Assembly: GCA_030272155.1 (NCBI GenBank)
Contig: CP126197.1
Coordinates: 3,712,001-3,776,000 of the forward strand
Direction: 5' to 3'
Source: Tetradesmus obliquus
Taxonomy: Eukaryota; Chlorophyta; Chlorophyceae; Sphaeropleales; Scenedesmaceae
Length of the DNA: 64,000 bases
Shown: piece after piece, positions 20,893 through 53,892 of the stretch
Layout: each line of letters starts with the position of its first letter
Numbering within the stretch: position 1 is the stretch's first letter
Made by a program: the position numbers and the translations under genes
Notes under the pieces: generated by a model
The model's input: only the letters and a program-made list of their open reading frames with translations
Databases searched by the model: none
What the model was told of the DNA's origin: nothing

Positions 20893-23410
20893 CATATGCG
20901 CTTTCGCCTTGTGGCTGCTGGGCCGCAGCGCTTGGTTGATCCCAGGCAGCTCTGGCTTGCCAGGTTTGTTGAGACACGCAGTGTGTGGGGTCGTGCTGCC
21001 TCAGCTGCACACAGTTTCCCTGCCGCTGCTTTGCAGTGGTAGGCCACGCATTGATCATTGCGGAGTGTCCTCGCAACACGATTTCTACAGGCGCATGCAG
21101 CCCCAGCCTCTGGGCACGTGCATTACAGCGCAGCTGGCCAGAAGAAAAGGCCAGTTGCAACAGCTAGCGCACATGAAGGAACTGCTAGAGACCACAGCGG
21201 CATCCGCACGAGCTGCTGCTGCACTCTGCTTGCCCGAGTTACTGTGTGCTTTGAGCAGCAACGTCAGATATTGATTCCATGCCTGACAGTAGCTGCTTTT
21301 CCATGGGTTCTTTCCACAGTCACTACTACCCTTTCTGTGCTGTTGCTGGACTGCAGTTGCACATGTTTGAATGTTCTTGGCCCTCGTTGCATTGCTGCTA
21401 CGGCCCAAACGCACTGTCGGGTGCTTGCATGCACATGATGCTGCTGCTGCTCTGCAGCTGCCGCTAGTTGTTGTGCTTCCGCTGCAGAGCCTGTTGCTTG
21501 GGAGCGTCGTGCTGTTTGCACCAGGGCCCCAAGCAGACTTGGGTTATTGCTTTGGATATGCTGTGCTGGGCTAATGGCGAGCTTTGGATATGCTGTGCTG
21601 AGCTCACCAATGATGCTGTGTTGAGCCTACTTGCTGTGTGCCAGTGGTGAGGCAATGGTGGCTGATCCTGCAGGGACTTCTTTGCCATGCATAGTGCACA
21701 TGCAGCAACCGGCACCCTTCACTAGGCACACTGCTCAGTCGTGCCAGTGGGCGGGCCTGTTGTTGCCATTTTGGCAGCATTAGTTTGCACGTTTGTGCGA
21801 GTGTTGCATACCGGGCAGGATTTAGACATTACCTCGCATTGCAAGGTACAACGGATGCCAGTGGGTTGCTGTGTTGCCAGCAGGGCAGTGTTGAGCACAT
21901 TCCTGGCTAGCGGGAGCAGGTCAGGTGGATGGCAGGTGTTGGGTTCTGTGTGCTTTCCTGCAGACATGGAAGTTGATTATTGTGTTATTTGGGCTGCACA
22001 ACGTTGCCGCAGATACATACATATAATCTTGGTTGATGTGCAGTTGATGCATTGTGATGGATGATCTAATGCAGGTCTGTGTGTTGCTGTTGCACGTGGT
22101 TATGTGGATTGTGCCATCAGCTGCTTCATGTTGTACTATGTCTTACCAACCTCCGAGGACACCAACCTGGATGGTCTGCATTGGCAGGTGGTTCACATTG
22201 GCAGTTGGTATGCATTGGCAGGTGGGGATGCCACATGCATTTGCAGGTACGCAGTGCTGTGTCCTACATGCATGGCTAGACAGAAGGGGGCCAGCATTGC
22301 TGACTGGTTCTCGTGCCTTTTGGTGTGTGGAAAGGACGGTGTTATCTTGCGCTGCAGTGAGACACGGGCTGTGTTCCCGTCGTGTAACACGTATGCTTAC
22401 AACCTTGAATCGTGAAGCCGCTTGAAATCTCACGTGACTGCTTGTGTTGCTGGTGCATGAAGCCCTTTCTTCATGTGGCAGCAGTACTATCAGGCGGTAA
22501 CTGCGCGGCCGCATGCCTATCCCGGCAGCCAGTTCGTTGCCTGTTTCAGATCCATGCTTCGCAGCCTTTTCAAACTGGTCTGCCCCAAGCTGGCAGGAAC
22601 GCAGGTAACAACAAATTAGAAGGAAGAAAGCAAAGCACTGTCATGCACTGTGAGGCAGCTTGCGGCTTCCTGTTTCAGAGCCACCTACTTTGGTGTAGCT
22701 GCTTGCACTGCGTGACGCACAACCTCTTTCTTCTGTTCATGTCACACAACAAGCTGCAATTTCTATCACGGAATGTATCAAATATCATCTGGGTGAAGCT
22801 CTTCAGGGAGCTCGTTGGTGTACACAAGAATGGCATGTCATGTCACTACTTCCAGCACCTGCACTAGTAGTGCCAGCCTGGCATCAGGCCATACCCTACT
22901 CTGCTTTCTGTATCTCAGCTTGCTGCTCCCTGCCTGCCGACAATCTGTAACACATTCTTCATGGACGAGATGAGCCTCTTTACCACCGAAGTACGTGACA
23001 TGCGCTCCTTGGAGCCCTCATGTCGTCTGTGTGCTGCGGCAGCACTGCTGCCATATCCCTAACAGCGAAGTGCATCTGCTGCTGTACAGCAGTACTGTCT
23101 AGTTTGCCTCCTATCAAAGTTTTCTAGCATCCCGAACACAGGCATCAACACCAGCTGTGAAATTGTTGGCGAAGCCACACTTCGTGGTTCTGCTCCAGTG
23201 CATTTCAAGTGCATCCAGGTTTTTTTGCCAGTGCAGCATGCACCGCATTAAGAATGTGTAATATAATTGAAATGTTGTTCACATGAATGCTTTACAGACA
23301 GGAACGTGGTGACTGTGCCGCTGATCGCTGTGCAAGCAACGGCGAATGATGTGTACAGCAAGCTCATGGACAGGGGAGGCTCCGTAAAGCAGCCATGGGA
23401 GCCTGCCTGA
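20893..23410 (+). CDS. Unrecognised exons; separate gene or 5' part of NLR-like gene
   Basis: Candidate exons: 20893-20963, 21091 to about 21260, 22550-22604, 22679-22792, 22919-22990, 23142-23218 and 23302-23410. Phases agree across 20963/21091 and across 22604, 22792, 22990 and 23218; the gap from 21260 to 22550 is unresolved. Readable pieces are helix-rich: LVDPRQLWLAR, QLARRKGQLQQLAHMKELL, LAAPCLPTICNTFFMDEMSL, PAVKLLAKPHFVVLLQC and NVVTVPLIAVQATANDVY. No family is recognised. The last frame stops at 23408-23410, only 12 bases before the candidate ATG of the next gene. A donor at 23384 (GTAAAG) would instead splice in phase to 23576, making all of this the N-terminus of the NLR-like protein. 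Confidence 0.35.
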
Positions 23411-23422
23411 GCAAAGGGCCCG

Positions 23423-26400
23423 ATGGTGCAGCAGCAGCAGCAGCTGATCAGCCGAGCTTTGCTCAGGAGAAAAAGGTCAACAGTGCATCATTGCGCGTCG
23501 AAAGAGCAGGTGCGTGTCTAGACGTGTGATGAGGAGACCTGCTGATGTGCTTGGTGGTCGCCTTCACCGACTCAGAGCGTGCCACTCTCTGCCACAGAGC
23601 CTGCTGCACCGGCAAAGGCTGCACCCGCAGTTGAAAGGGACCAAGTGAGCCCGGAGCTTCCGGCAGACATTGCATCATGGGCGCCTGGGGATGTCTCCAG
23701 CTGGGCTGCCGCGCTTGGGCTTCCGAAGGCATCCCTCACCGCACTGCAGGTAGGCAGGCCGGGTCAAGGATATCAAGACGCCTACGTATTACCACTTTCT
23801 GCTGCAAGGCGTAGGCTCCTGTGTCTGCTGTAGCCAGCTGAACTTCTACAGGTCACCTGCTGCTGTCCTTATGCCACTGCTGATGGGCCTGTGATGCAGT
23901 GCCTGCGCCCTCATCGCACCTGCTGCTGCTGCAACCTGTCCTGCAGGGGGTTACAGGCCAGCAGCTGCTGCAGTTGAGTGATCACAGGCTGCTGCAGCTG
24001 GGCGTGCTGGATGCAGCAGAGCGCCATGCTCTGCTGGCCACCAGGACACAGCTGCAGCAGGAGCATGCGCCTGATACGGTGCCAGCTGCGCAGCAGCCGA
24101 GCAGCAGCACACAGGCAGCTACCAAGAGCAGCATGCCTACCATCACTGAGCGCTCGTCATCTGGGGCGCTGCCATGGGCGGGTGCTGGCAGCAGGCCAGA
24201 GGAAGCAGGGCTGACTGTTGATGCTCAACCCGACACGCCCAGTGCTAACACTCTCAGCCGGTGCGTATGCGGATGCAGCAGCGTACGTAGCTGCAGCAGC
24301 GGCCTCCGCTGGCATTACTCGCAAGATGCAGTTGGCTGCACCAGTGCTTGTGCGCGCAAGTGATTTGAGCTTGTGCCTGCAGCATGCGCATATGTCCTGC
24401 AGCTGTCCTGCAAGCAGTTGTGCTTTCTTGAACAGGTGCAGCAGCTATGGGATGTCGCGCATGGGAGCTCAGCAGCGTGCAGCATGCCTGCTGCTGCCAG
24501 CAACTGATGAGTCTTGAGCTCAAATAAGCAGCAGCAGGCAGGTTGGCTTGCGGCCAGCCAAACATTCCTCCAAGCTCATCACAGCCAGCACCATCACGTG
24601 TGTCCAGGCGCGTGCACTTGACTGCTTGCTGATGGCATGTGCGCCCTCTCTGCTCCTCTGATGCTGCGGTGCTGTGTAGGTATGCGACTGTCACGCCACG
24701 GCAGGGCAGCCGCTCAGGCGACTTGTCAGGTCCGCTGCAGCTGGGTGTGTCGTTTGCTGGCATGCATCAGCCGCTGGACGATGATGCGGCTGCGCCGGAG
24801 GCAGCTGCTGATAGCAACGTGATTCTCGAGGAGATGAAGGGCATGCAGGTGCTGCGCATCACAGCAAACGGGCGGCTGTTCAGGTGCGCAGCTGGCCAGC
24901 AGCACAGATGATGAGCAGGCGTACATGCAGAAGGGAGCAGAAGTTTTATAAATAGCAACAGAGCAAACATCGAATGCCTGCAGCAACAGCTTGAGTGCTG
25001 GTGCAGAGCATACACCTGCAGTGGCCGTGGAAGCATTTGTGATGCTGTGCAACAGTGGCCGTGTCCGCTGCAGTTGCTGCTGCTGCTTGTTCGGCAGTGT
25101 TGGCAGAGAGGCCTCGCTTGCCCAACCACAGCAGCAGCGTGACATGCCTCAACAGTGCAAGTCACACCCTCCAGCAAATAGGCTGCAGCTGCTGCCAGCC
25201 ATTCTGATGCTTGCGTGCTACCGCGCATGGTACTGCACATGAGGATTGAAGTGTGACCCGCCTTTGTGTTCTGCCTGTTTCGCCCGTTCCGCATGTTTCG
25301 TTGCTGCGCAGGCACAGCAGGCCGGTGCCGATGTCGCTGGTGCCCTACTGCCAGGCGCTGTGCCTGCTGCATGACCTGCGGCGCGGCGCGCACTACCACT
25401 ACGACAACTGCCACCAGCTGCTGCAGCGCTGCGTGCTGGTGCAGGACTACCTGCTGGCGCTGCCGCATGCAGCGCTGCGGCGGCAGACGGTGATGCTGTC
25501 ACAGCTGTCGCTGCTGGTGCAGGATGCGTACGACGTGTTCAGCCAGTTTTCCGAGCGGTGAGCAATTGCAATAGTTTGCTGCTGTGACAGCGGCGTCATG
25601 ACTTTTAGTTGCTGGCTTGGCTTATCATATCTTGAAGTTCTGGGCGTACAGCACTTGCGCAGCTCTTGCAGGAGCAGTGTGAAGCCTGTGTCGCCAATCA
25701 AACATGTCTCTTTGTGTGCGGTCTCGTGTCTGCGCCCTGCAGTGGCTGGCTGCTGCGGCTGCTGAACAGCGTGCGTGACCAGGACGACTTTAACAGGCTA
25801 GACCAGCTGCTGGTGAATGCGATGGAGGCTGCAGGCGCTGATACATCAGAGCAGCCCATTGCAGACCTGCGCAGGCCGCACACGTACGCGCCGCAGCAGC
25901 AGCAGCTGGAGGCTGCGCTAAAGCATTTGGGCGGCATCACCAAGCTGCTGCGCGACCCGCTGTCAGCCACAATTCGGTTGCAGTCGCTGCTGCACCACCT
26001 GCCGTCTGGCTCGAACATCGACACGCTGCTGCAGCAGGAGATCGACCACTACCTGTCCAGCCAGCTGTGGTTCAGCGACAGCGACAGCAGGCCAGGCAGC
26101 AGGGAGAGCAGCTTCTACGTGTCCAGCACCGCCAGCGGCAGCGGCAGCGGCGGCGTCGGGCGCGCAGGCAGCGGCGGCGGCAGTGGTGGCGGCATGCTGC
26201 GGCGGCAGAGGTCGTTGGGGCCTGGCCGGCGGCCGGCCACGCTGTCTGTGGTTGAGCCGTTCATGGTGCTGCGCAATGACACAGTGCGCAGCGAGTGGCG
26301 CGGCGCGTTTGGCGGGCGGGAGCGCGTGACGTGGCGGGAGTTTTGGTACAAGCTGGTGCAGCCGCAGGTGGGCTGGGTGCAGCAGGCCTGCAGTGTGCTG

Positions 26401-29400
26401 TTGGCTGCTGCTCTTGTGGCATTGGCATGGCATGCATGCGGGCAAATTGCTTGAATTTGGCTGTTGATGTGATGTTGCAGCAGCAGTTTGGGATGGTTCA
26501 GGGGCGTGTGCTGACACTGCCTGATGCTTTACTGCGGCTGCCTGCTGTTGTGTCCATCGCGCCGCAGGCGCACATCTGGGGCCTGGACCAGCAGCTGGAC
26601 AAGTTCACGACAGACTACGTGCAGCAGCACCTGCAGTGCGGCAGCCACGGCCTGCTAACAATAGCTGAGCTGGACTTTGCGTTCCCGCCAAACTCTAGCC
26701 CAGCTATGGTCATCCAGGCGAAGCTCAAGGAGCACAGTACCACAGGCAGCGCGCTGCCCACATTCGGATCCAGCGCAGGCAACTTGTCGGCAAAGCGGCC
26801 GCAGGGGGCGGCTGGCTGGCTGCGGGACCTGCGGGTGCTGCAGGAGCCGATTCCGAGGCTGCACAACTTCCCAGAGGTGCGGCTAGCTAGCGCTGACATT
26901 TGATTGAAATGTGACCTTCAATCACAGCTCATTCCAGAGGTGCAGGCAGGGCTGGGGCTGAGGCTAGGCTTGAGGCTGGGTGGTTCGATCGGCGTGTGCA
27001 CTGCTGCCCGGTGCAAGCTGCGAGACGAAGCAGTGGCAGTTGATGGCGCGCCTCACTGGTTGGCTGCTCAGCTGCTCTGCTGTGCTGCTTTATCTGTTTC
27101 CGCAGCTGCGCTTGGACCGCGTGACTGCGTGCAGGCGTGTCCCAACCTCCTGCCTGTTGTGCTACTGTGCTGCGCTGCTGTGCTGCGCTGCTGCTTCCAC
27201 ATGTCTGCTGCTGCAGTTCCCTGTGTACCACGTGCCTCGTGAGGAGGAGGTTGCTGAGCTGGTGCTGGGCATGGCTGACGTCAGCACCAACCTGGTCATG
27301 CTGACCGGGTCCCAGGGGGTGGGCCGCAGCATGCTGGCAGCCAGCATGGCACAGGAGCTGGTGGTATCTCACCACTGGACAGATGCGTACTGGATTGACC
27401 TGCAGGGCGTGAGCAATGTGGTGCTGGCAGGTGCGGGGCCGTGAGGCTGCGAGCGTGCGAGGCGATGTGGCCAGCAGGGCAGCAGTGCTTGCTTGCTGAT
27501 TGTTGCGCGTTCTGAGTTGAACCCGCATGGCCGTGCTGGTGCAGCTAGTAGTTTTGGTAATCAGCAGTAGCAAAGCATTCAGCTTGTGCGCACGTCATGG
27601 CTACTGAAGGAGGCTCTGCAGGCCGGCTGTGCATGTGCATCCACACTCGAGACACTGCTGCATGCCGACTGTACTTTATCGTGCAGGCCAGCAGCTGATG
27701 ACTGGGCTGGGCCTGACCAGCGTGTGCCAGACACGCAGCAGCTGCTAACTTGCTGTGCATCCACAATTGTAACACACTGCTGCATGTCAGCTGTACTTCA
27801 TCCTGCAGGCCAGCAGCTGATGACAGGGCTGGGCCTGACCAGCGATATGCCAGACACGCAGCAGCTGCTAACTTGCTGTGCATTGCACCCAACACACTGC
27901 TGCTTACTGCAATGTATTGTCGTGCAGTCAAGCAGCTGATGACTGGGCTGGGCCTGACCAGTGATGTCCCAGACACTCAGCAGCTGCTAACTTGCTGTGC
28001 ATGGCACCCAACCCACTGCTGCATGTCAACTGTACTTTATCCTGCAGGCCAGCAGCTGATGACTGGGCTGGGCCTGACCAGCGATGTGCCAAACACTCAG
28101 CAGCTGCTGGCTTGCTGTGCATCCACACTTCCAACACACTGCTGCATACTGCACTGTACTTTATCCTGCAGGCCAGCAGCTGATGACTGGGCTGGGCCTG
28201 ACCAGCGATGTGCCAAACACTCAGCAGCTGCTGGCTTGCTGTGCATCCACACTTCCAACACACTGCTGCACACTGCACTGTACTTTATCCTGCAGGCCAG
28301 CAGCTGATGACTGGGCTGGGCCTGACCAGTGATGTCCCAGACACGCAGCAGCTGCTGGCGTGGCTGGAGGGCCGTCCCCGGGAGCGCTTTGGCATTGTGC
28401 TGAGCCACGTGCAGGAGCTGCTGAGCGCGCCGGCTGAGGAGCAACAGGGCTTCCTGGACCTGCTGGATAACATACTGCATGTGAGTGTGAGGCTTTGGCA
28501 TTCTGGCGGATGTTTAAGATCATGTTCCAAAGCAGCGTTGATCAGGGTGAAGCTGGCTGCAGAGATGAGCAGCAGGGCTTCCTGGACCTGCTGGATAACA
28601 TTTTGCACGTGAGTCACATTAGCATGCTTGCTGTATAGTATCAGAGCAGACCGCTGGATGGCATCTTCTGAAGCTGGCTGGAGGGACGGCGGGTTTGCAG
28701 TGTGGATAGCATGCGCGCGTGTTGCGTGACTGGCATGTATTCCTGCCTGTCGCATCCAAGAAACCAACAGCAAGCTTGTGTGATCCTGCTGGTATTGAGC
28801 ATGAACATCTCGCCACTTCAATGTGGCAGCAGGCAGTGGCCATAAGCATGATAACATGCCATGTACGGTACCTTGGTTGGCCTGCCAGGTGGTGCTATGC
28901 TGTTTCCATCCGCAACCTGCTGCTCTGCCTGCGGCCCTGTCTGCTGTTGCTGCAGTCTTCACACAAGCTGCAGGTGGTGGTGGTGTGTGAGGAGCCGCTG
29001 TCGCGCATCACGTACCTTGCGCGCGCAGTGCAAGTGGAGCCGCTGTCAGCAGAGGTGGCGGGGCAGATGGTGCAGCAGGCGCAGGCCAACGTGAAGCAGG
29101 CGAGTTCAGTTTGAACCCATGATCCAAGCTCAAGTGCTGAGGTCACACACTTTGCTTATGTGTATTGCCTGCTTCGTGGTCAACTTGCACGCTGCCTTGC
29201 TCTGCCTGATGTTGCTTACTAACAGCATGAGTAATGCAGCAGTGGCTGACGTGCACATATGTGCATCTGCTGCGTGTCTGCCCTGCAGGAGCACGTGCAG
29301 TGCGTGGTAGGGGCGTGCCAGGGCACTCCGCTGGCTCTGGCTGTGGTGTGCGGGCTCATGCGCTGCGGCTACTGCAGCGCGGCCGACTTCCTGCGCATCT

Positions 29401-32400
29401 ACAGCGACCGCGCGCTGCCGATTGATCATGGCGGCAGCGACGGCAACACCAGCAGCTACCTGCCGTTTGAGAGCAGGCAGACGCACGAGCGGGTGCTCAG
29501 GTATGTTGCCCAACATGCAAGCTCTAGCAGGCAGCAGCAGCTTGTCTGTCTCTCGACACCAGAGTACACCTGTCTTCTGCAAAGTTCTGCACACTGCCTC
29601 TGTTCGCATCTGCTTGCGTGGTGTGCAGGACTGCTACAACACTTCGGCAGGCCTGACAGTCTTGGTTGCTGCTGCTGCTGCCGCCGTGATGGCTGCAGGG
29701 TGCTGGTTGCAGCTGCGATTGCGCTGCCAGATGATCTCGTGACAGGGCTGCTGGTGCTGTCGCTGCTGCCGGCGCCGTTCAGCTTTGAGATGGCGGCTCC
29801 GCTGCTAGCGCTGCCGCTCACCAACAACGAGCGGCGCGCAATCATGCGGCGGCTAGTAAACCTGGGCCTGCTGAGCTACAATGCGTCGCTGCAGTTATTT
29901 ACAATGCACAAGCTTGTGCGGGACGCTGCGCGGCTGCTGGTGCACAACCTAGGTGAGGAGGAGGAGCGTGGCTCGATGGGCAGCATATTTGTTTGTCTGC
30001 GCTGTAGGCAAGGCATGCAGCTGCTGTTATAGATGCACAAGCTGGTCCGGGACGCTGCATGGCTGCTGGTGCACCATTTGGTTGAGGGGCTGGCTGTCCA
30101 GCTGGTCCGTGTGTTTGTGGGTGAAGCGCAAGAACGTGTGCAGCTGCTGCTTCAGGCTGCTTTGTGGCATAAGATGCAGCGTTGTACAAAGTAGCAGCCA
30201 CGGGCAAGCACATGTTGTGCTCTGCTAGTGGTTGTACATGTGCAGATGTGACGCTGTAGCCGCGACTCAGGGCATACATGCACTCTTCTATGCACGTATG
30301 ACTGCTCTGCACCACTGTGGCTTGTCCAACTGTGTGTAACTTCGCTCAATGGATGTGTTGTTTATGTGTTGCACTGTGCAGGCCTGCCGTACAACGAGAC
30401 GCGTCGTCGCTTTGCTGAGCTGCTGGTGTCCTCAGCGCGGCGGCTAGTGCTGCCGCTGATTGCCAAGAACCGCATGCTGTCTGCGCGGCTGGCATGGAGC
30501 CGGCTGTCTGTGCACGTGGTGCAGCTGGTGAACTGGGCCTTCACAGAAGTGCGGGAGGACATGCTGCCGCTGTATGTCAGCATGGCGTGGGACCTCATGC
30601 CGCTGCTGAGCAGCAGCGTCAGCTCCTACACGCTGCAGGGTGCGTGGGGTGTGGTGTGGGGGGTGTAACGGGTTTGGCCTGGAAAGGCGAGGGCTGTTTG
30701 CCTCTCGATTTGTTTAGTGCGTGAGTTGTGCTGCAGATGGTGGCATGTGCCAGATTCTATAAGCACGCTGCATTGTCCTGGCGATGCGCTGCTGCTGCCG
30801 AAGGCTTCTGCCAGGTGGTGCTGGAGCGGCCGCAGTTCTTAGATGTGCCAGTCTGACTGACTTCATGTTCGCCATTCTCTCGGCTGCGCTGCTGCGATAC
30901 TGCCCTGCTGCTGCCATCTGCAGGCTTCTGCCAAGTGGCCCTCGAGCGCGCGCAGTTCCTGGACATGTGTGTCTGACGGACCGCCTGTCCCTCTGCTGTT
31001 GCTGCGCTGCTGCTGCCGCTGCAGGCTTCTGTCAGGTGGTGCTGGAGCGCGCGCAGTTCCTGGACATGACGCTGGACAGTGCGGAGCTGATGATGGTGCT
31101 GGGCGGCCTGCTGGCTGAGTCAGCAGCACTCAAGCGCGCGGACGCAATGCTGCGCCAGGCGCTGGAGTACTTCTGGCGCGAGCTCAAGGGCCCACACCAG
31201 GCGGTGGCGCGCTGCTACAAGGTGCGTGATGCTGTGCAGCGGGGCGCGGCTTGCTCGCGTGGCACGGGTGGAGAAGAGTTGCCGACAGCCCTAGTGCAAC
31301 TGGCAAGTGTGACAAACTCTTGGCAGCACGGCATGGCATGCTGAGGTCAGGCAGTCTTCAGCCAGAAAATATCAAATATCATACATGATAAATGTTGACA
31401 AAGGTTGACCGCTCCTGTAATTGCTGTCTGCATTGCTGCCCTGCAGGAGCTGGGCGCGCTCATGCTCAAGGCCGGCAAGCCATCGGAAGCGAGCAAGCAC
31501 TTGGCGCAGGGGCTGGAGATGCTGGTGCGTGGCAGCTGGCAGCAGCAGCATGCGGGGTGCTTCGTGTGGTGCTTGGTGTGGTCTGTCGCGGCTGGTGACT
31601 TGCGTAGAGCATGCTATCTCCCAGTAGGCGCTGCATGCGAATGCTCGCCTTTTGCTCTCTATGTTCACATCAGGATCAGACAAGTGTTGTGTTGCTATAC
31701 GTGAATTGACAGGTATTGAGAATGCTATGCAACCTGGTGCGTCGCTGCCCCTGCAGGAGACGCTGTATGGCGGCGCCAGCGCGGAGCTGCTGGCAGTGCT
31801 GCAGCTGCAGGTTGAGCTGCTGCGCCGCAGCCGCAAGTATGTGGAGGCTGAGGGCGTGGTCACGCGCGCGCTGGGCATCTGCGGCGCCGCGTACGGCCCC
31901 AACGACGTGCAGGTCGCGGTGTGGAAGAACCAGCTGGCGCAGGTGCGTGGGGCCGTGGGGGACTGTGGCTGCCATCTGTGGCGTAATAGGCACGCATGGC
32001 TTCAATTGCGCCAGTTGCTTGTAGCAGGTGCCTCTGCCAGTTACACTCAGGCAAGTCAATCATGGCTTGACTGACAACCGTGATTGCGCATAGCGTGCGG
32101 CTGTGTGATCAACATGCTCATGTTATATGTGGGTCGTGATAATTGTGTACCTGTTGTGTAGGTGGCGCGCCAGGCGCGGCGGCTGGACTGTTGGAGGCTG
32201 GACATCAATCCGTGGTCAAAATGTATACAAGTTGCTGTGCATGCTCAACCAGTTCACGCTCACAATGAATGTATTTATGTGCAAAACCTGTGCAAAAAAA
32301 CCTGTGCAAAACCTGTGCAGTCTGTTGTGCATCATCAGGTCAGCTCATGCTGACAGTGAACGTGTACGGTTTGTTGTGCAGGTGGTGCGCCAGGCGGCAG

Positions 32401-34898
32401 GCTGGACGAGGCGCAAAGTCTGCAGTTGTAGAAGCCGCATGCTGAAAACTGTATACAACCTTTTGTGCATTCTCAGTTCGTGCTCACAAGGAATGTTTGT
32501 TGTTTGATTTTGCTCATTCTGTGCAGGTGGTGCGCCAGGCAGGCCGGCTGGACGAGGCGCAGAGCCTGGCGCAGGAGGTGCTGGCGCTGCTGCAGGGCCA
32601 GCTGGGCAGCGAGCACCCGCGCGTGGCTGCGCAGCTGATGATGCTGGGGCAGCTGGCCGCGCAGCAGGGCAAGCAGGCGGCGGCGGAGCAGACGTACCGC
32701 AAGGCGCTGCAGGTGTGTGCTGCTGGTGGCTGGTGGCGTGTTATGTTGAGTCCGCTCAGCTGTGTTTTGGTACGGTGGCGTGATTGTGGGCCGCAAAGAA
32801 TGCATGCATGACATGGGATGTTGTGTGCATCTGCAGTTGCTTGTGTTTTGCCTCCTGTCAGTCTCTCCAGCCGTCCATTGCTGAGTTGCTGAGTCATCCA
32901 CCATCGTCTGCTGTCTGCTGCGGCTCCTCATTCACTGCTTCCGCCCGCAGGTGTACCAGTCTGTGTCCGGCCTGCACCACCCGGACACCTTCAACTGCCT
33001 CACTTCGCTAGTTTCGCTGCTGCGCGGCGCGGGCAAGGCCGCACACGCGCTGCCGCTGGCGCAGCGCTGCATGGCGGTCAAGAAGAAGAGCCTCGGGGAG
33101 CTGCACCCAGACACTGCTGCCTCGATGCAAGTGGTGGCGGACGTCATGCTGGACCTGGGCAAGTGAGTATTTGTAGTATATGTATCAAGTGTTGGCAAAT
33201 GTAGATGCGTGTGAGCGGTGCAACGACACAGGAGAACGGCAGTCGAAGACTGAATGGCAGCAGATGCTGGGCAAGGACCGCGCGCGCTGCCGCTCGGCAC
33301 AGCCGCACGTTCCTGCCGCAGTTGTTCGGCACACACTGTGCATGGCAGAAGTGCACTTAGCTGCTGCCCGCTGCTCTTGTTTTTGGCGCAGTTATTCGGC
33401 ACATACTGTGCACAATAGCAGTGCACTCAGCCGCTGCCCGCTGCTCTTGTCCTTGGCGCTGCTGCTGCTGCGCAGGTATGCTGAGGTAGAGTCGCACTGC
33501 AGCCGCGCCGTGTGGGTGTACCAGCAGCTCAACCAGCCCGCCAGCAGCAAGCCCGTTATCGTGGCGACAACCATGCAGGCCCTAGCGCTCGTGCTATTAG
33601 GCCGTGCAAACGAGGCGGAGAAGCTTGCGACGGATTGCCTGGAAGCAGCGCGGCACATGTCTGGGCCTGCTGCGGAGCGCAACAGCTTTGTGGCCAGCTG
33701 CCACAACTGCCTGGGGGAGGTGCTGCGTGAGATGGGGCGGCTGCCAGATGCTGAGGCAGCAGCACGCGAGGGCCTGGCCATGCGCGAGAAGGTGCGGCAG
33801 TGTGGCTTGTGGCTGCTGCCTTTAAGATGCTTGTTGTGGCGGCGATGATGCAGCGATGGCTGTTGACCAATAGGCCACTATGCAATGATTTATTGACCAA
33901 TTGGCCACATGCCAGCCGTCCGCTGCTCTAAAGGTGCTGTGCCTGTGCTGGCGGCGCTCGAGCAGCAATGAACACTACAGGAGCACATGGGCATTGAAAC
34001 ACTTCGCTGATTAGGGGGCTTCGCCTGTGCTGCATTAAACATGATGGCTTGTTGCTGCGCCTTGTGGCCGCATGACCTGGGTGCCAGCCACTGCATCGTT
34101 GCCATCTCACTGCAGACGCTGGGCCACATCCTGCGCATGCCACACTAGCCTGACGCGTGCTGCTGCATGCCGTGCTTGTTGCATTCTGTCGCCGCAGGAC
34201 CTGGGCGCCAGCCACCCCATCGTGGCCATCTCGCTGCAGACGCTGGGCCACATCCTGCGCATGCGGCAGCAGCTAGAGCCAGCGCTGGATGTGGCGCAGC
34301 GCTGCCAGGCGCTGAGGGCCTCGCAGCCGCAGGGCCTGCAGATGGCGGCAGCGCTGCACCTGCAGGTGAGGAAGAGGCTGGCTGGGGTAGTGCGATTGTA
34401 TTGCGATGTTTGGATGATTTGGTTCTAAGGTGTTCAGTTTTTCTGTCAAAGGGTGCCACGCGTGCGAGTGTTCGAGGAGTTTCTTTGGCAAGCGATGCCC
34501 TGTTGAGTAGCAGCCGCACAGCTGCCGCAGCAGCGTATGTTGACACGGTGCTGCTGCTGCTGCTGCTGCTGACGCTGTTCCTACTGTTGCTGCTGCTACT
34601 GCTGCTGCTGCAGGCGCTGATCTACCTGGACATGGGCAAGGTTGAGGAGGCGCTGGCGGCAGGCCAGGCGGCGCTGTCCATCAGGCAGAAGGTGCTGCAC
34701 AACGAGCACCCAGACCTAGCGCACAGCCTTACAGGTGCGTGGAGAGATGCGTGATGTCTCTCACGCGTTGCATGAGAGAATGTGGTGTTGCTTGAGCAAT
34801 CGTGGATCCAATCGCATGGCCCTACCTATTAGGATGTTCAAGCATGCCGTGTTCTACCACATCCTGCCCAGCCTGCTGCTAACAAGCGGTCACCGCCC

Positions 34899-34934
<36 letters not shown>

Positions 34935-37900
34935 CAGTTGTGTCCGAGGTGCTGCTGATGCAGGACAAGCACCACGAGGCAGAGCCGCTGCTATCCCTAG
35001 CTGTGCAGATATTCATCGGGCAGCTGGGCAGCAGCCACCCAGCCACGCAGCGCACACACACGCTGCTCAAGCAGGCCACCAATCCACGCACATCCACAGC
35101 AAGCAGCATGAGCCTCGGCATGCGCATGTCAGGCGCGCTGCACGAAGCCAGCAGCAGCAGGCTGCAGGGCGTGGAGAGCAGGCAGGCAGCTGCGCCGGCG
35201 GCGCCAGCAGCAGCAGCAGCGGCTCCAGCAGCAGACAAGACCGGGTCTACGGCAGAGATGCCGTCATTCGGCACTGTTGCGGTGCAGCAGCCGGAGGAGC
35301 AGCAGCAGCAGGCGCGCGACGTCACTGTGCCAGTGACAGACCGCACTGAGCTTGCTGCTGACGATGCTGACGGCCAGGCGGTTACAGCAGGCGGCTTGAG
35401 CAGCGCTGGCGCAGCAGTGGAGGTTACTGCTGCAGCATTTGCAGGCGGCGCTGCGGCAGCAGCCTCTGGCGCGGCATCGCCGTCGCACCGCAGCTTGAGC
35501 CAGCCTGCCAACATCAGCATCGCGTCAAAGATCAACAACTTTGCTGCTGCTGCTGGCGGCGCCGCCGCAGCTGGCAGCGCGTATGGCGGCTACATGAGCA
35601 TGGATGCAAGCCCTGTAGCTCCTGTGAAGGAGGATGCAGAGGAGGTTGTGCTGCAGCCGCATGCAGCGCCGGCAGCAGCTGCGGCCGCGCAGGATGACAG
35701 CAACGGGCAGCAGCTTGCGCGCGCAGACAGCAGCATGGCGTCTGGCGATGCAGCAGCGCCGGCAGACCCCTCGGAATGGGAGCTGGGGCGGCAGTTTGGC
35801 CAGACGGCGCCGCTTGCGGCTACAGGCGTGGATGATGCTGATGCGGGCCAGCGAGCATACACCAAGGTGCTGCATGAGCTTACTCGCAGGACCTCTCTCG
35901 GCTCGCATGATGGCGCGAGGGATACGCTCGTGACGGCAAACTCAGACGCAGCAGCAGTAGCAGCAGCAGCGGCAGACGAGTCTGTCGGGATGGTGCTGGC
36001 GCCGCCAGTCGTGCCGGAGCCACCGGCGGCAGCAGCAGCGCCTGCTGCGGCGCGCGGGGCGGCGATGAGGGATAGGGATAGCTCGGGCAGCGTTAGCGGC
36101 ATGCTTGGGCGGCAGGCTGTTGCGGAGGATGTGGCAGCAGAGCTGGAGGCTGTTGCAATGGCAGAGGAGGATGATAAGCTGGCGAAGCTCCACCAGGCTG
36201 GTGTGGGTGATATTGATCAGCTGCGGCAGTTCCTGCGCGAGCACGGCTGGCAGCTCAGCAGGCTGAGCAAAGCTGATGACAAGGATGTGGCAGGCGGCGG
36301 CTGGCAGGCTGCACGTAGCGCAATCGCGGCCGGGGCGTTCAGCGGCAGCGGCAGCGCATCCGCAGCAGCAGCAGCGCCGCCCGGCAGGACTGGCAGCCAC
36401 GGCGAGGAGCTGGGCCAGCAGATCGCGCGCGGCGCAGCAGCGGGGAGCCGCGCGGACGGACAGCAGCGGCGGCCGCCGGCGCGGCACTACAGCTTCCTAG
36501 GCCAGGGCCAGCAAGGTGCTGCTGGCGATGCTCTGGGCCTGGCGTCAGTGCAGGAGCTATCATCCGGCGCGTTGCAGCAGCTGGCGCTGAATTCAGCGGA
36601 GCTGCGCGCGCTGCAGGCGAGCCAGCTGGCGCAACCGCAGGGCGCAGCGCAGAAAGCAGGCCAGGGCAGCAACAGGATGCTGCACAGCGTGCCGGCGCTT
36701 GACCAGCAGCTGCGGGCCGCGCAGTACATGCAGCACAGCTTGCCTGAGATGCCCTGGGGAACCGGCTGGCCGGGCCAGGATGGCACGATCACTGAGGAAG
36801 AGGAGGAGGCGGCGGCAGCAGCGGCAGCAGACTTGATGTACCAGCAGATCGCGCAGGCCGAATCTGAGGAGGTGATTGCGCGGCTGCGGGCCGAGCAGGG
36901 CTGGATGAACTCGCAGCAGCAGCAGCAGCAGCAGCAGATGCGGCGCTTCCCGCAGCGCCGTGGCGCGAGCACGATGAGTGCTGCGGAGCTCTCGGGCCAT
37001 GTGCGGCAGCTGCGGCAGCAGTTTGGCCCAGATGCAGCGTTCAGCGAGGAGGACATCATGCTGAGCCTGCAGCAGCAGCTGCCAGGTTACGCCAGGCAGC
37101 AAGGCTGGCAGCCTGGGCAGCCGCGCGGGCGGCGGCGGAGGGACTCCTGGGATGCATCATACGGCCCGACACACCCCATGGCAGCAGCAGCGGCAGCGGC
37201 GGCTGCAGCGTGCGAGTACAATGTGAGCAGTGCCGAGGATGAAGCCGACCTGCGGGCGCGCTTCGAGGCGCTGCAGCAGCAGATGCTGCTGGCTCAGCAG
37301 CAGGCTGGCGCCTGGCACCCGCAGCAGCAGCAGCAGCAGGAGTATATGATGGCGCAGGCAAACCTCGAGCCCTTGCAAAGCTCGTTCAGCGCTGCGCTGC
37401 CCGGATCTGGCGGCCAAGGCTTTGCGCGTGCACAGTCAGCGCAGCTGCCAGCCAGCATGCAGCTGCCGACGCAGCAGCAGCTGCGCGGCACCAGCAGCGC
37501 ACAGCAGTATGGCTCGCTGTCGCCAGCAGGCAGCTTGCAGGCAGAGCTGCCTGGCAGGCCGGCCGGGCATGGCGCAGCGGCAGCAGCAGCGGGTGCGCCT
37601 GGCACGCTGCTGAAGCACCCGAGCAACATCTCCAGCTACTCGGCTGGCTCTGCGAGGTCGCTGCCGGCTGGGCAGCAGGAGCATGCGGCTGCCGCCGACG
37701 CTGCAGCTGCTGAGCAGCAGCAGCAGCAGCAAGCAGCGCAGGCGCCTGATGAGCAGCCAAACATGGCAATGAAGGCACGCAGCGCCCTCGGCATGGCAAG
37801 GCAGGGCTCAACAGGTGTTCCTAGCGATGCAGCAGCAGCAGCAGCAGGTGGTGCTGGCAGTGCTTCTGCAGGCCCCTCAGCACGCGGCGACAGCACTGTG

Positions 37901-40408
37901 TCACCGCCGACAGGCTTTGCAGCTGCATCAAGCGGCAGGTTGGGCCACCACCGTCCCGCCAAGCGCAACGTGTCGTTCAAGCTGAACAAGCACCAGCTGC
38001 ACGCCGCAATGCAGCACCAGCAGCAGATGGAGGACGAGACAGCGGACTCGCTGGAGATGGGCAGCCCCAGGAGTGCAGCAGCAGCAGTGGCAATGTTTGG
38101 CGCTGGCTCTGGCAGGCAGGGCATGGCCGGCTTGCAGCAGCAGCAGCAGCACGTGCCGAGTTCTGGCGGCCGCTCTGCCGGCGGCCGGCCGCGCTCGCCG
38201 CTGATGCACAGCATGGATGAGGCGGCTGCAGCTGCCATGTTCGGCCATGTGGGCTTTGCGCAGCACAGCCCGCACGCCTCGTTCGCGTCGCAACCCATGC
38301 TGCCAGACTCGATCGAGGCCGATAACTTGGAGGCGTATTATTACTCGGGTTCTGAGGCCCGCGTGTCGCCAGGCATGGCAGGGTATGGCATGCCAGGAAT
38401 GCCGCGCCCGCACACAGCCGGCGCTGGCAGCATGCTCGGCATGCAGCAGCAGCAGCGCAACGCCGCGCTCGCGCCGCTGCGCGGCCCGCCCAGCGCCGGC
38501 CGCAACCGGTCCTTCAACAATGGCCCGCAGCCGGGCAGCGCAACTGCCAGCTGGGATGCCGGGGATCCCGCGCGCACGCACCAGCAGCTGCTGCTGCAGC
38601 AGCAGGTGCTGCAGGTGCAGGCGGCGCGGCTGGAGCTGCAGAAGCAGCAGCTGGAGATCGAGCAGCTGCTGAACCAGCAGCAGCAGGAGCAGCAGGCCGC
38701 AAACTCGGGGCAGTGGCCGGCTATGTCCATGGCGCATAGCATGGGTACCCCGATGTCGCCTGCAGCAAACATGCTGCCTATGCCGCAGCAGCAGCGCACG
38801 CCGGCACAGCCGCAATACTACCAGCAGCAGCAGCAGCAAGGCTTTGGTGGTGCAGCGGCAGGGTACCCTAACCCAGCAGGCTACCCGCTGCAGCCAGCTA
38901 CCAGCAGTGCCAGCACAATGAGCATCAGCAGCCCAACCAGCACCATGCAGCAGCAGCACATGCAGATGCCTCGGGGTGGCGTGCTAGAGCAGGTGCTGGA
39001 CAGCTCAGCAGCAGCTGCCGCAGCTGCACCTGGGCAGCAGCAGCAGCAGCAGCAAACAGGCTATGGTCTGCCGCAGATCCTGACGGGTCCTTCCCCGCAG
39101 AGCAGCATGCACACTGGCAGCAGCTACATCCCGTCCAGCCCATCTGCCAGCAGCAGCTTGTCATCAAAGCCTGCGCTGTCACGAGGAGCCTCGGACAACC
39201 AAGAAGCGCAAGTTGCGGCTGCAATGGTAGCACACATGGGCGCTGCACGCCCTGCGCAGCAGCAGCAGCAGCAGCGGCCGGGGTCGCCAGGGTTCGGCAA
39301 GCGCGTCAGCAGCGGCAGCGGTGTAGGACCTGGCAGCAGGCAGCAGCAGCAGCAGCACAGGCTGCATAGCCAGCGCAGCTATGAGGAGCCTGAGATGCTG
39401 TCTGGCACACCAAGCCATACTGCAGGGCCGCCACACATGCAGCAGCAGCATGTTGGCTGGCCTGGTGCGCAAGGGCAGCAGCAAGCGCTGCAGCAGCAGC
39501 TCGCAATGCAGCAGCTCGCCATGCAGCAGCAGCAGCAGATGCCTGGCCGCGCCCCGGGCCGCCAGATGTACCCGCCGATGGGCGTTGCAGCAGCAGGCCC
39601 TGCTGTTGCGTGGCGAGGTGGCATGCAGCCGGGGGGCGCTGCTGCTGGCAGTGCCTCGGGCCCCCTGGGTGGCATGCGCACTCCTGGCAGCGGCTTTGTG
39701 GGCCAGCCTGCAGTTGGCTACTCTGGGCCGCTGGGCCGACCCATGGCAGGCGCAGGCATGCATCCTAGCATGGCAGCAGCAGCAGCAGGCAACGGCCCTG
39801 CAATGCGGGGCCATTCCGGGTTTGCTGGCAGTGGGCCACTGTCAAGGATGGAGCTGCAGCAGCTGCAGCAGCAGCAGCAGATGGCACACCCGAGCTTCCC
39901 CAGCCACCACCCTGCAGCGGCGGCCGCAGGCTGGCAGCAGCAGCAGCAGCAGCTGCAGCAGCTGCAGCACGAGTACTACGCTGCCGCACAGGGCATGGAC
40001 GCGTACGGGCTGCAGCAGCTGCAGCAGCAGCTCCAGCAGCAGCAGCAGCAGCTGCTGCAGCAGCACGAGCAGCCGCCGCCGGGCAGTGAAGATTACGACA
40101 TGTGGGCTGCACCTCCCGATTATGGAGGCAACGCCAGCAACATGGCAACAAGCAGCGGAGTGGGCTCATCCAACCAGCAGCCTGACGGCAGCAGGGGTGC
40201 TGGCAGCTTCTCCCGCAGCTTCATCGCTCCCGGGGGAGGGCAGTACTGGCAGGGGCGGCGCAGCAACAGCTTCAGTAACCTTGAAGGCGTTGCGGCACAT
40301 GCTGCTGCGGCTGGCTCTGCAGGCTCGCTGGGCAGGACAGGCCTGCCGCGGTCCCGCAGCAGCAGCGAGCTTGCGCACGAGGCCGAGCAGCAGCAGCAGC
40401 AGCAGTGA
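23423..40408 (+). CDS. NLR-like protein: SAM, helical region, NB-ARC, TPR, Q/A-rich tail
   Basis: Twenty-two exons join in frame to about 3,415 aa: 23423-23509, 23576-23749, 23947-24260, 24680-24883, 25312-25557, 25743-26367, 26481-26876, 27217-27430, 28296-28480, 28956-29099, 29289-29500, 29699-29952, 30382-30639, 31025-31221, 31447-31524, 31757-31942, 32527-32712, 32951-33162, 33476-33791, 34198-34365, 34614-34734, 34938-40408. Regions by residue: SAM about 61-120 (DVSSWAAALGLPKASL, LLQLGVLDAAERHAL); helical region 262-400; NB-ARC 683-1018 with TGSQGVGRSMLA, VLSHVQ, GTPLALAV and MHKLVRDAA; kinesin-light-chain-type TPRs about 1105-1640 (GPHQAVARCYK, SEHPRVAAQLM, LHHPDTFNCLTSL); Q/A/S/G-rich tail to the end. 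NB-ARC/TPR proteins are STAND signalling ATPases; here key nucleotide residues are changed. Upstream exons (20893-23410) may belong to it. Partner and function unknown. Confidence 0.85.
27687..28295 (+). repeat. Five tandem copies of NB-ARC exon 9 start plus acceptor
   Basis: Copies begin at 27687, 27809, 27928, 28048 and 28172; the genuine exon starts at 28296. The period is 119-124 bp. Each copy has the intron tail with TGCTGCAT and CTGCAG, then about 70 exon bases (QQLMTGLGLTSDVPDTQQLL), then diverges into intron. Copies 4 and 5 are nearly identical to the genuine start; copy 3 has TCA in place of GCC after the acceptor. None has a donor at its end. Confidence 0.9.
28555..28620 (+). repeat. 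Copy of NB-ARC exon 9 end plus donor
   Basis: The exon end GFLDLLDNILH with the GTGAGT donor (genuine end 28480) is repeated at about 28566-28612. Exon 9 therefore has start copies upstream and an end copy downstream. Confidence 0.85.
30025..30080 (+). repeat. Copy of exon 12 end (MHK motif region)
   Basis: The segment encoding MHKLVRDAA and LLVH, genuine at 29904-29952, is repeated at about 30030-30076 in the following intron. The copy keeps MHKLVRDAA, so the Asp-to-Lys change predates the duplication. Confidence 0.85.
30800..30985 (+). repeat. Two copies of exon 14 start plus acceptor
   Basis: The start GFCQVVLERAQFLDM (genuine 31025) recurs at about 30808-30852 and 30925-30970 in the preceding intron, each followed by diverged sequence. 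Confidence 0.85.
32155..32440 (+). repeat. Two copies of exon 17 start plus acceptor
   Basis: The start VVRQAGRLDEAQ (genuine 32527) recurs at about 32161-32205 and 32382-32430, with the same upstream intron flank containing TATACAA and TGCTCA. The second copy runs out of frame after DEAQSL. Confidence 0.8.
33300..33475 (+). repeat. Duplicated intron tail before exon 19
   Basis: About 70 bases ending in CGCTGCTCTTG are present at roughly 33317-33390 and 33393-33465 directly upstream of the exon 19 acceptor. Only the second is followed by the exon. Confidence 0.75.
34070..34145 (+). repeat. Copy of TPR exon 20 start
   Basis: About 65 bases encoding DLGASHPIVAISLQTLGH (genuine 34198-34262) occur at about 34077-34141 in the preceding intron with a few changes. 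Confidence 0.85.
34545..34613 (+). repeat. CTG-rich tract at exon 21 acceptor
   Basis: A run of CTG units with a few substitutions ends in the CAG acceptor at 34611-34613. A second such run, 34903-34937, ends at the acceptor of exon 22. Confidence 0.8.
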
Positions 40409-40558: not shown

Positions 40559-40563
40559 TGTAA
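40559..40563 (+). terminator. Candidate poly(A) signal for NLR-like gene
   Basis: TGTAA lies about 150 nt after the stop codon at 40408. Confidence 0.5.
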
Positions 40564-42997: not shown

Positions 42998-44310
42998 ATG
43001 GCCTCCGAGGCGCAACTTGACATCCCAAAGCCCACGATCAAGCGTATAGTTAAGGAGAAGCTTGCTGCTGCTGCAGGCAGCAGTGAGGGCACTAAAGCAG
43101 ATATCCAGCTAAACAAAGAGGCGCTGCTAGCATTTGGAGAGAGTGCTAAGGTGATCAACAGTTGTACTACTCTCCTTGTTGCTGCCTGTGCCTGTCTATG
43201 CTCTGCCATGCCCAGCCCAAGACCACATTGCAGCACCAGCCATGCTGTCTGACACCCTTGCATATGCATCTACTGCAATTCATTTCTTTTTTCTGCCATC
43301 CGCAGGTGTTCATTAGTTATGTGACGGCGACAGCAAACGACGTGTGCAAGGACAAGAAGCGGGCCACACTCAGCGCAGATGATGTGCTGACAGCGCTTGA
43401 GGAGACAGACTTTGCTGAGCTGCTGCCACCACTGAAAGAGGCATATGAAGGTGAGCAGCACCACCCAAACATGTCTGGCATTATTACTCAAGTATCGTCA
43501 ACATTATCAGCAGCAATGGTGGCGGTGGCGGCGGCGGCAGCAGCTGACCGGTGATGGCGAAACAGTCGCAGCAACACAGCCAGTGGCGTGAGCAGTGCAG
43601 GCAGCATTGTCGGCAGCCTCTGTATGACGCAGCTGCACCAGCACCAGCACCAGCACCACCCGTTGCACCACCACCAGCAGCACTCAAATGCCCATCCCCT
43701 GAAGACTCAGTAGGGTGATGCCAGGCCCTGAGTTCACACACAGAGCAGGGACCGCCAAGCACGTAACACACCGAACCAAAGGACGATAGATGCAGCAGCG
43801 TAGCCAGCCATAGGCTGCAGGCCTGCGGCAGCAAGCCTCGTTTGGTGTGCATCTTGCACAGGTGCCCCATGCACAGCTCATTCACATGCTTTTTAGTAAG
43901 AGAGGATAGTTGCACGCGTGGGCGTTTACTCGCATGCTTTTGCTGCCGATGCTGCTGCATGCCGCCTGGCAAAATAGTAACAATGTGTGTATTCTGTGCC
44001 AATGCCGCCAACTTGCCTTGCAGCCTACAAGCAGAGCTTGAAAGTGAAGAAGGGCAAAAAGGCCGAGGTCAGCAGGAAGCGAAAGTCAGCAGGCCAGGCT
44101 GGCGATGGTCCAGATGGCGACACAGCAGCAGCAGCAGCTGGCGAAGGCGAAGGCGCAGACACCAAAGCAGCTGCAGACAAGTCGCCTGCTGATGCTGCTG
44201 ATGCGGCAGACGAGCAGCAAGAGGACGGGGCCGCAGCAGCAGCAGCAGCAGAGGATGAGGACATGGCAGATGCTGAGCAAGAAGCAGATGGTGAGGATGA
44301 AGCAGAGTAA
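42998..44310 (+). CDS. POLE3: DNA polymerase epsilon subunit 3, histone fold
   Basis: POLE3/Dpb4 pairs with POLE4 in the leading-strand polymerase and in some chromatin-remodelling complexes. Three exons: 42998-43150, 43306-43450, 44024-44310; 194 aa, phases agree. The histone fold covers about residues 10-100: IPKPTIKRIVKEKLA, IQLNKEALLAFGESAKVF, SYVTATANDVCKDKK, TLSADDVLTALEETDF, ELLPPLKEAYEAYKQS. A basic stretch (KVKKGKK, SRKRK) follows, then an acidic, Ala-rich tail ending GEDEAE. This is the CBF/NF-YB-like class; the combination ATANDVCKDKKR and the EAYKQSLKVKKGKK helix fits POLE3 better than NF-YB. Confidence 0.88.
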
Positions 44311-52394: not shown

Positions 52395-53892
52395 TCACGC
52401 AAGCAGCCGCGGGTCGTTCAAGCTCTGCAGAGGCGCCACGTCAGCAGCATACAGCGCAGCAGGGCTCGCGTAGATCTCACTCACTGCATACGGCCGGCCG
52501 GCGGCTCGAGCCGCCGCCAGCGCAGACTGCAGCGCCAGCAGCCACTGCATTGGCAGCTTCAGAGATGCCACGCTGTGGCCGGTGAGGCATTGCAGCGCTG
52601 CTTCGCTGCTTTTGAGGCCCAGCAGCAGCTGCGCTGCCGCAAACGCAGCAGCAGCGAGCTCGCTCGGCTTGAACGGCAGCAGGTTGTATTCCAACAGGCT
52701 TGCCTCTGCCAGGTAAGCTGTCAGCCAGTACAACTGACGGTACTGCTGCCGCCGCTGCTGTTGCTGCTGCTGCTGCTGCATGTCGGCGGCAGCCGCGGGG
52801 TCTGCTGCGCCAGCGGCTGCTTCTGCTTCTGCTTCTGCTGAGTCCTGCATTGCAGCCGCCAGTAGCTGCATGCTTCGATGCACGAAGGCCTTGGCTGTCA
52901 CAATGCGAGCCAGATTGTAGTCTAATGTGCGCAGCACGCGGACCTCCAGCAGCACGAGCAGCTGCTGCGGCGCTGATGCATTGTGCTGTAGCTCTGGGGG
53001 TGCATCGCTCGGCATGCGCACAAACTGCGCGAAGCAGTGCACCGACGGCACACACAGCTGCTCGTACTTTGCTGCAAGCCACAGGCAGGCGACGCCCAGT
53101 GGCTGCAGCAGCAGCACGTGTGTTGGCTGCGCAGCAAGGTACGCATCAAAGCATGCTACAGCTGTGAACAGGGACTCTGAGTGGAGGCCAAGCGCTGCTG
53201 CTGCTGCCACCATAGTGTCGATGGCTGCTGCGCGCTGCTCAGGAGTCATGCCGCTGTGCGCTTGTGTGGATTCAAGGTAGAAGCAGCGGCCAGGCTGGTT
53301 TTCCTGGAGGACGCAAGTGCAGGGCAGCAGCAGGCAGGTAGCAGTCAGGCTTTATGTATACTGACTGCAAGCATTCTAGCCGCTGGGGTGTGGGTTGTGT
53401 ACGGAGGCTGGTGCAGGGGTGGTGTGAGGGTGGATGCAGGCTGGTGCGACAGGCGGCTGACAGCACAAGACACACATGCAGATGCATGCTAGAAGACAAC
53501 GGCATTAGAAGCCCGTGCTGCTGCTTTTGTATGCCAGCTGGCTACTTATGCCTGACTGGTCTGCTGGTGCACCCTCTGGCTGCCAGTGCAATGCATCCTA
53601 GGTGCTGCTGCTGCGCCCTTGCGCCGACCATATCGTGGCGTGCGTTTGGTTCCAATCCAATTAAACAAATAAAATGCAAATAAAACAAATAAAACAAATA
53701 AAATCCAATTAAACAAATAAAATGCTTGGTGTAATCAATTGCAGCAGCCTGCCGCATCACCTGCATGCCAAACATGTGCGCATCAAGCTCCTTGTCGGAA
53801 CTCGCTGCAAGGTGGCCGTGCTTCACGTCCATCCCCACAGGCGTTGCAGGCACATGGCCTGCAGCAGCAGCAACAAGCCACAGGCAGCGCAT
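52395..53892 (-). CDS. Cyclin, A/B-like with two cyclin boxes
   Basis: Cyclins activate cyclin-dependent kinases in cell-cycle control. Two exons are supported: about 53892-53761 (start uncertain) and 53303-52395, joining in phase. The first exon gives SDKELDAHMFGMQ, like the start of the cyclin N box. The second gives YLESTQAHSGMTPEQRAAAID, ESLFTAVACFDAYLA, GVACLWLAAKYEQLCVPSV, EVRVLRTLDYNLARI (N box), then after a Q-rich insert YLAEASLLEYNLLPFKPSEL and AAAFAAAQLLLG (C box). YLAEASLLEY fits the YLAELSLLDY signature of A-type cyclins. The usual MRxxLxDW is replaced by MTPEQRAAAID; Arg and Asp are kept. The TGA stop overlaps a good donor (GTGAGT), so the end may be spliced further. No destruction box is visible in these exons. 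Confidence 0.75.
53657..53723. repeat. AT-rich AACAAATAAAAT repeat in cyclin intron
   Basis: Units of CCAATTAAACAAATAAAAT and ACAAATAAA repeat several times in an otherwise GC-rich intron. Confidence 0.85.

Follow-up and report, generated by a model that had tools for sequence, protein, structure and literature searches.

Does the unusually large gene at this locus encode an immune receptor of the NLR kind, or a protein that has put the same building blocks to another use? The window, by which we mean the whole analysed stretch of 64,000 nucleotides from Tetradesmus obliquus, holds a gene that joins a SAM domain, an NB-ARC segment, TPR repeats and a very long low-complexity tail. To our knowledge, experiments on NLRs have been confined to flowering plants and a few other organisms, and what is known of NLR-like proteins in green algae comes almost entirely from genomes. 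The locus is a real gene of rare architecture, a variant of the STAND/NLR kind, and a corrected start codon together with an altered nucleotide switch are the two main results. The reading that we prefer, to which we give a probability of roughly 40%, is that the predicted protein would be a membrane-anchored SAM-STAND-TPR scaffold that has lost its ATP switch, and it might perhaps serve in stress or cell-death signalling.

The gene model comprises the following segments:

23395..40408, + strand, whole gene, 22 exons, 3,385 amino acids
23395-23509, 23598-23749, 23947-24260, 24680-24883, 25312-25557, 25743-26367, + strand, exons 1 to 6
26568-26876, 27217-27430, 28296-28480, 28956-29090, 29289-29500, 29699-29952, + strand, exons 7 to 12
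30382-30639, 31025-31221, 31447-31524, 31757-31942, 32527-32712, 32951-33162, + strand, exons 13 to 18
33476-33791, 34198-34365, 34614-34734, 34938-40408, + strand, exons 19 to 22

All 21 introns are bounded by GT and AG and the joined frame of 3,385 codons has no internal stop, which bears out the 22 exons of the preliminary description, whereas its length of about 3,415 residues has to be revised. The end of exon 10 is uncertain by 9 nt, the chosen donor being GTGAAG at 29091. Since neither a stop nor a frameshift interrupts any exon, the gene does not look decayed. Within this frame the order proposed earlier (SAM, helical region, NB-ARC, kinesin-light-chain-type TPRs, long Q/A-rich tail) holds, and Pfam and hhalign domain matches back the description of an NLR-like protein with SAM and TPR. 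A Pfam search with the assembled protein, which had been suggested as a check, matched the TPRs (TPR_12, E 1.6e-55), found SAM_2 over its cut-off in the isolated segment only and left NB-ARC just below.

The start had been placed at 23423. Read from there with the same exon 1-2 splice, the frame runs into a stop after 45 codons, and this start was rejected; the true start is the ATG at 23395, 28 bases upstream, which opens the frame that reaches the SAM domain and is preceded by an in-frame stop at 23347 with no ATG between. The new N-terminus reads:

23395..23415, + strand, N-terminal MGACLSK, N-myristoylation consensus MG-X-X-X-S with Cys4, a possible S-acylation site

MG-X-X-X-S/T is the N-myristoylation consensus, and S-acylated cysteines adjoin it in RPS5-type NLRs, according to the available part of the report (PMC11467418). 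In the window and five regions of the same genome, 4,306 frames led by ATG were examined, and MGxxxSK opens five of them: three NLR-like ones (in the window and on contigs C12 and C6) and two more from the C6 region. Next to three other NB-ARC genes of the genome, open frames begin with MGCVGSK (C12), MGCIASK (C6) and MGGLCCK (C1, 1.94 Mb), starts that were placed by eye; the splice program begins its C1 1.94-Mb model at that MG, its C6 model upstream of MGCIASK and its C12 model downstream of MGCVGSK. For the NB-ARC loci at C1 0.26 Mb and on C11 no acylation-type start was placed. The three genes concerned (C12, ~2.01 Mb; C6, ~2.75 Mb; C1, ~1.94 Mb) carry LRR-like repeats as judged by eye. 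These predicted starts suggest that a green alga may possess a small group of acylated NLRs.

Two features follow the N-terminal motif:

23669..24054, + strand, SAM domain, residues 63-125, exons 2-3
25312..25860, + strand, helical region, exon 5 and start of exon 6

The SAM_2 model matches the isolated segment at E 7.2e-6 (26.5 bits, cut-off 20.5) and the same segment within the long protein at E 0.0012 (19.5 bits). The helical region may possibly be MLKL-like as well as helical: MLKL_N weakly matches residues 318-371 across the exon 5-6 junction (E 0.0096-0.013, 15.5-15.9 bits, under its cut-off of 27), and a single-sequence structure model of exon 5 alone shows three helices at pLDDT 65. 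None of 19 fold matches to the exon 5 model reaches E 0.001, and a PDB sequence search with the region gave no match at E up to 10. Kinship with the helical bundle of two NLRs of the same genome was considered and is unsupported (hhalign 15.0, shuffle maximum 23.4).

The central segment is the following:

27217..30491, + strand, degenerate NB-ARC including the winged-helix part, residues 656-1025, exons 8-13

In Pfam it is matched by AAA_16 (8.7e-6) and NB-ARC (4.8e-5), each under its cut-off, the latter by little (23.2 bits against 23.5). Aligned by hhalign with a profile of five NB-ARC domains of the same genome, it gave 95.0% probability and E 3.6e-8; the 253 aligned columns begin at the P-loop and extend into the winged helix. 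A repeat run scored 58.0, whereas none of 100 shuffles exceeded 21.6 and five further segments of the giant protein scored 8.6-18.7. The only PDB sequence match at E up to 10 was the plant NLR NRC4 (E 0.5). Thus the significance of the NB-ARC match, on which the preliminary description depended, is upheld in profile comparison despite the narrow Pfam shortfall, and its sequence places the segment as a homolog of NB-ARC domains.

The motifs of the nucleotide switch lie within it:

27307..27330, + strand, Walker A GSQGVGRS, lysine replaced by arginine (codon CGC), departing from GxxxxGK[ST]
28388..28411, + strand, Walker B position FGIVLSHV, acidic residues absent, placed by its spacing to the VVVVCEE strand
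29895..29924, + strand, MHD position MHK (in LFTMHKLVRD), departing from MHD

As read from the sequence, the Walker A and MHD positions are altered. The arginine codon, CGC, and the lysine codon AAG have a different base in each position, so that one wrong base would not account for the change. At Walker B the acids are probably altered too; hhalign sets LLDNIL (28460-28477) at Walker B instead of IVLSH. For comparison, a Pfam search of the genome gave 11 NB-ARC matches, one of them the giant gene, and five other loci were modelled, their sequences being joined by hand from open frames and splice-program models; weak matches on C3 (17.4 bits) and at C1 2.82 Mb (14.0 bits) were left aside. GK[ST] and the first Walker B aspartate are kept in all five. 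At the MHD place three read HD, one VDG, and the NB-ARC-TPR gene among them VHK, at the end of the drafted part; MHK may therefore not be peculiar to the giant gene.

Two described cases concern changes at the Walker A lysine. In the plant NLR PML5 a Walker A Lys-to-Arg mutation abolished cell death and large complexes and kept self-association, and the mutant protein was mainly cytosolic (PMC11467418, in the part available). SAMD9 proteins have Gly at this lysine site, and the accessible text of PMC5445408 allows for NTP binding without hydrolysis. Both cases bear on the scaffold reading. The effects of the PML5 mutation on cell death and complexes speak for it; on the other side, the cytosolic PML5 mutant implies that loss of the lysine could accompany loss of the membrane hold, and a possible NTP binding by SAMD9, whose P-loop is changed, weakens the claim that the switch is lost (PMC5445408, as far as its available part goes).

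The C-terminal half is made up of two parts:

30639..35086, + strand, kinesin-light-chain-type TPR array, residues 1075-1612, exons 14-22
35087..40405, + strand, low-complexity tail rich in Ala, Gln, Gly, Ser and Pro, 1,773 amino acids

The array, for which about 12 repeats are estimated from its length at 42 residues each, has kinesin light chains as its top PDB matches and supplies the C-terminal repeat superstructure that belongs to the definition of an NLR. That the array reaches into exon 22 follows from PDB matches extending to residue 1598, the tail exon taken alone giving no TPR in Pfam. The tail, scanned in three pieces, gave no Pfam domain at E up to 0.01. Prion-like domains of the yeast type are Asn/Gln-rich with Tyr and have little Ala. 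The tail, described earlier as prion-like, contains 19.2% A, 13.5% Q, 1.7% N and 1.7% Y; being Ala/Gln/Gly/Ser-rich and poor in Asn and Tyr it is not clearly prion-like, and on composition alone a domain of the yeast type is unsupported. A second Q/A/S-rich open frame of 476 codons lies at 16062-17489 (no Pfam match at E up to 0.05), so the tail is not the only such stretch of the window.

Taken together, these parts allow a mechanism to be proposed for the scaffold. The N-terminus would be myristoylated and probably S-acylated, fixing the protein to a membrane, while the SAM domain might self-associate and the NB-ARC segment might serve as a nucleotide-independent core for oligomerisation and regulation. 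The groove of the TPRs would bind a peptide or partner, and the tail may space or concentrate clients. Binding at the TPRs would then bring SAM domains and helical regions together on the membrane and set off a signal, most likely into a stress, immune or cell-death pathway. The immune side of this proposal has three sources: the relationship to NLRs, the resemblance to SAMD9, and the other NB-ARC genes of the genome, namely those with LRR-like repeats (by eye) and the one on C11 that has a TIR match just upstream.

The same parts could also form a working algal NLR-type receptor, in which a ligand of the TPRs would trigger ATP-driven NB-ARC assembly and the helical region would be a membrane-attacking four-helix bundle of the MLKL, HeLo or RPW8 kind. 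An N-terminal module followed by NB-ARC and repeats is the NLR layout, the weak MLKL_N match crosses the exon 5-6 junction, plants have acylated NLRs of the RPS5/PML type (PMC11467418, available part), and NB-ARC genes with canonical P-loops occur elsewhere in the genome. However, changes affect the Walker A lysine, the MHD aspartate and probably the Walker B acids, and for the helical region MLKL_N stays under its cut-off, the comparison with the two resident NLRs is below the shuffle maximum, and both PDB search and exon 5 fold matching are empty at their thresholds. We regard a working receptor as rather unlikely. The more general suggestion of an algal immune or stress receptor, made in the preliminary description, is possible from the domain content, and it is made doubtful by the altered NLR switch motifs and because no relative of known function was found.

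About as probable as a working receptor is a more specific proposal, that the gene encodes a membrane-tethered pseudo-ATPase NLR of algae, whose SAM domain would polymerise on the membrane without nucleotide switching, which would have arisen independently of animal SAMD9, and which would act as helper or brake for the canonical NLRs of the same genome.

A scaffold of cilia or basal bodies resembling nephrocystin-3 (N-myristoylated, with a STAND NTPase and kinesin-light-chain-type TPRs, the SAM domain being a partner-binding module) appears unlikely. TPR_NPHP3 reaches 133.8 bits on the TPR part (cut-off 100), NPHP3 itself is N-myristoylated and carries TPRs (PMC6678300, in the part available), and radial-spoke exons in the genome indicate that at least one ciliary gene has been kept. 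Against this, one of 14 prokaryote control genomes likewise has a match to TPR_NPHP3 above the cut-off, and a portion of another NB-ARC-TPR gene of the same genome scores 86.6 bits with it, so an NPHP3 label resting on TPR_NPHP3 was discarded as unspecific; NPHP3_N is weak (E 0.12, 13.1 bits, cut-off 24.8) compared with AAA_16 (8.7e-6) and NB-ARC (4.8e-5).

The gene model was examined by a splice/codon dynamic program, the training set of which was the giant gene itself. At intron penalties of -12, -15 and -18 it recovered 19 of the 22 exons exactly, and at a low penalty 17, with many small extra exons; exons 1 and 2 were missed (the alternative first exon being 22961-22990) and the tail was cut once. 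With a codon table from the TPR part, the called frame scored highest in 12 of 13 earlier exons and was free of stops in all 13, exon 1 scoring higher in another frame and exons 1-2 having a weak coding signal. The tail exon is open over 1,822 codons, against maxima of 718 and 667 in 200 order-1 and 200 order-3 simulations, respectively. Past the stop codon lies:

40559..40563, + strand, TGTAA, likely poly(A) signal, 151 nt past the stop codon

TGTAA, which we take to be the green-algal poly(A) signal, also occurs in introns 8, 12, 13 and 14. From intron 8 into exon 9 (27625-28359), a 124-bp unit carrying the acceptor and the first part of exon 9 stands six times in tandem, and the copy number could affect splicing; at lower intron penalties the program took three 69-nt repeat copies as in-phase mini-exons. 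Partial copies of exon edges with their splice sites were noted, mostly by eye, in other introns (28555-28610, 30798-31024, 32150-32526, 33290-33475, 34040-34197). Draft models on C13 and C4 include exon-like repeated segments too, which may be a genome-wide habit. That the model has merged at least two genes or an alternatively spliced one, for instance SAM and helical region upstream and NB-ARC-TPR downstream, could be argued from the intronic TGTAA, the weakly coding exons 1-2 that the program passed over and the decoy splice sites within repeated intron segments, but is quite improbable given phases that agree across 21 introns without a stop, an MLKL_N match spanning one exon junction, an hhalign NB-ARC match spanning four (exons 8-12) and PDB matches to another TPR protein that extend to residue 1598, inside exon 22.

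Searches for relatives covered the genome itself (104.66 Mb, 17 contigs) and several collections. All 13 matches of the NB-ARC part to its own genome fall within the giant-gene locus; the helical part had eight, four in the locus and four elsewhere at E 0.07-2.3. This search for close copies is blind to distant relatives, and the NB-ARC genes found by the Pfam model do not appear in it. Neither the genome nor the collections searched, in which eukaryotes are few or missing, yielded a close relative: in the genome contig collection none of 12 pattern matches and in the viral contig collection neither of two was confirmed, the phage collection had no match for 131 bases of DNA, and one outside match, an AAA ATPase of a Streptomyces plasmid, was weak (E 5e-3). 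As these collections are poor in eukaryotes, the absence says little on the spread of the gene among algae.

Further loci were noted in the genome. At C11:2595891-2602000 a TIR match, NB-ARC and LRR-like repeats (by eye) stand in a row, the TIR match just upstream of NB-ARC reaching 24.1 bits (cut-off 21.3) with one internal stop; a stronger TIR match is at C8:3125664. In a draft model at C13:1804001-1824000, TPRs and an extended Q/S-rich stretch accompany a part that by eye resembles a protein kinase; the model also runs through a SecA-like upstream part (by eye) and probably represents two genes. Pfam scanning of the neighbourhood gave:

4379-6202, + strand, dihydrodipicolinate synthase (DHDPS)
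43300-43473, + strand, CBF/NF-Y histone-fold protein
52404-53261, - strand, cyclin

These neighbours were considered as partners and set aside; in nine of the 39 high-scoring window segments, those that were scanned, no effector was present.

Among described proteins, animal SAMD9 is, by analogy, the nearest analogue. SAMD9/SAMD9L of animals and some bacteria share with the giant protein a SAM domain (N-terminal in vertebrates), a STAND-like NTPase whose Walker A lysine is replaced, and a TPR array, a likeness drawn from descriptions in the available part of PMC5445408. SAMD9 has in addition AlbA_2, SIR2-like and OB-fold domains, which Pfam did not find in the giant protein (E up to 1 for the first 1,611 residues, E up to 0.01 for the tail); the lysine site holds Gly in SAMD9 (GGT/S signature) and Arg here, and the family is reported absent from plants. 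NB-ARC-TPR proteins of bacteria, fungi and algae, including the TPR proteins of the FxSxx-COOH system (NCBIfam NF040586), likewise have an NB-ARC-type STAND followed by TPRs, to which the giant protein adds SAM, the acylation motif and the long tail, its P-loop being degenerate. FxSxx_TPR (NF040586) gave 192.3 bits on the TPR part alone, the family cut-off being 300, and the NB-ARC part had no NCBIfam match. The NB-ARC-TPR gene of the same genome (C1, ~263-268 kb) has NB-ARC followed by kinesin-light-chain-type TPRs and, in draft, VHK at the aligned MHD place, but unlike the giant gene it keeps a canonical GIGKST P-loop and an LDD Walker B, and no SAM domain was noticed in it.

The acylated plant CC-NLRs of the RPS5 and PML group carry LRRs, not TPRs. 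They share the MG-X-X-X-S/T start with a nearby Cys and NB-ARC, as the accessible text of PMC11467418 describes; unlike the giant protein, they have a working P-loop and MHD and no SAM. Nephrocystin-3 has an N-myristoylation-type start (myristoylation being predicted here), a STAND NTPase region and kinesin-light-chain-type TPRs in common with the giant protein, whose NTPase region is closer to NB-ARC/AAA_16 than to NPHP3_N and which has SAM and the tail besides. Of related arrangements, NB-TPR has been reported from bacteria and brown algae and NB-LRR from chlorophytes (PMC7145615), a SAM_Ste50p domain from fungal NLRs (PMC9815663), and in a streptophyte alga three of five tested CC-type domains caused cell death in a plant (PMC11218826), each according to the part of the source available. 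The full order of SAM, helical region, NB-ARC, TPR and tail was not found in the open literature among the matches listed in a small search, which agrees with the earlier statement that no described protein has it; that statement has to be qualified, since SAM with STAND and TPR (SAMD9), SAM on fungal NLRs and NB-TPR had already been described in the available parts of these sources.

The giant gene would provide a naturally occurring case in which to ask whether an NB-ARC still functions in the absence of the very lysine that experimenters turn to arginine to kill plant NLRs. Moreover, if the acylation-type starts of this and other NB-ARC genes of the genome prove correct, the anchoring of NLR-like proteins in membranes would date back as far as the green algae.
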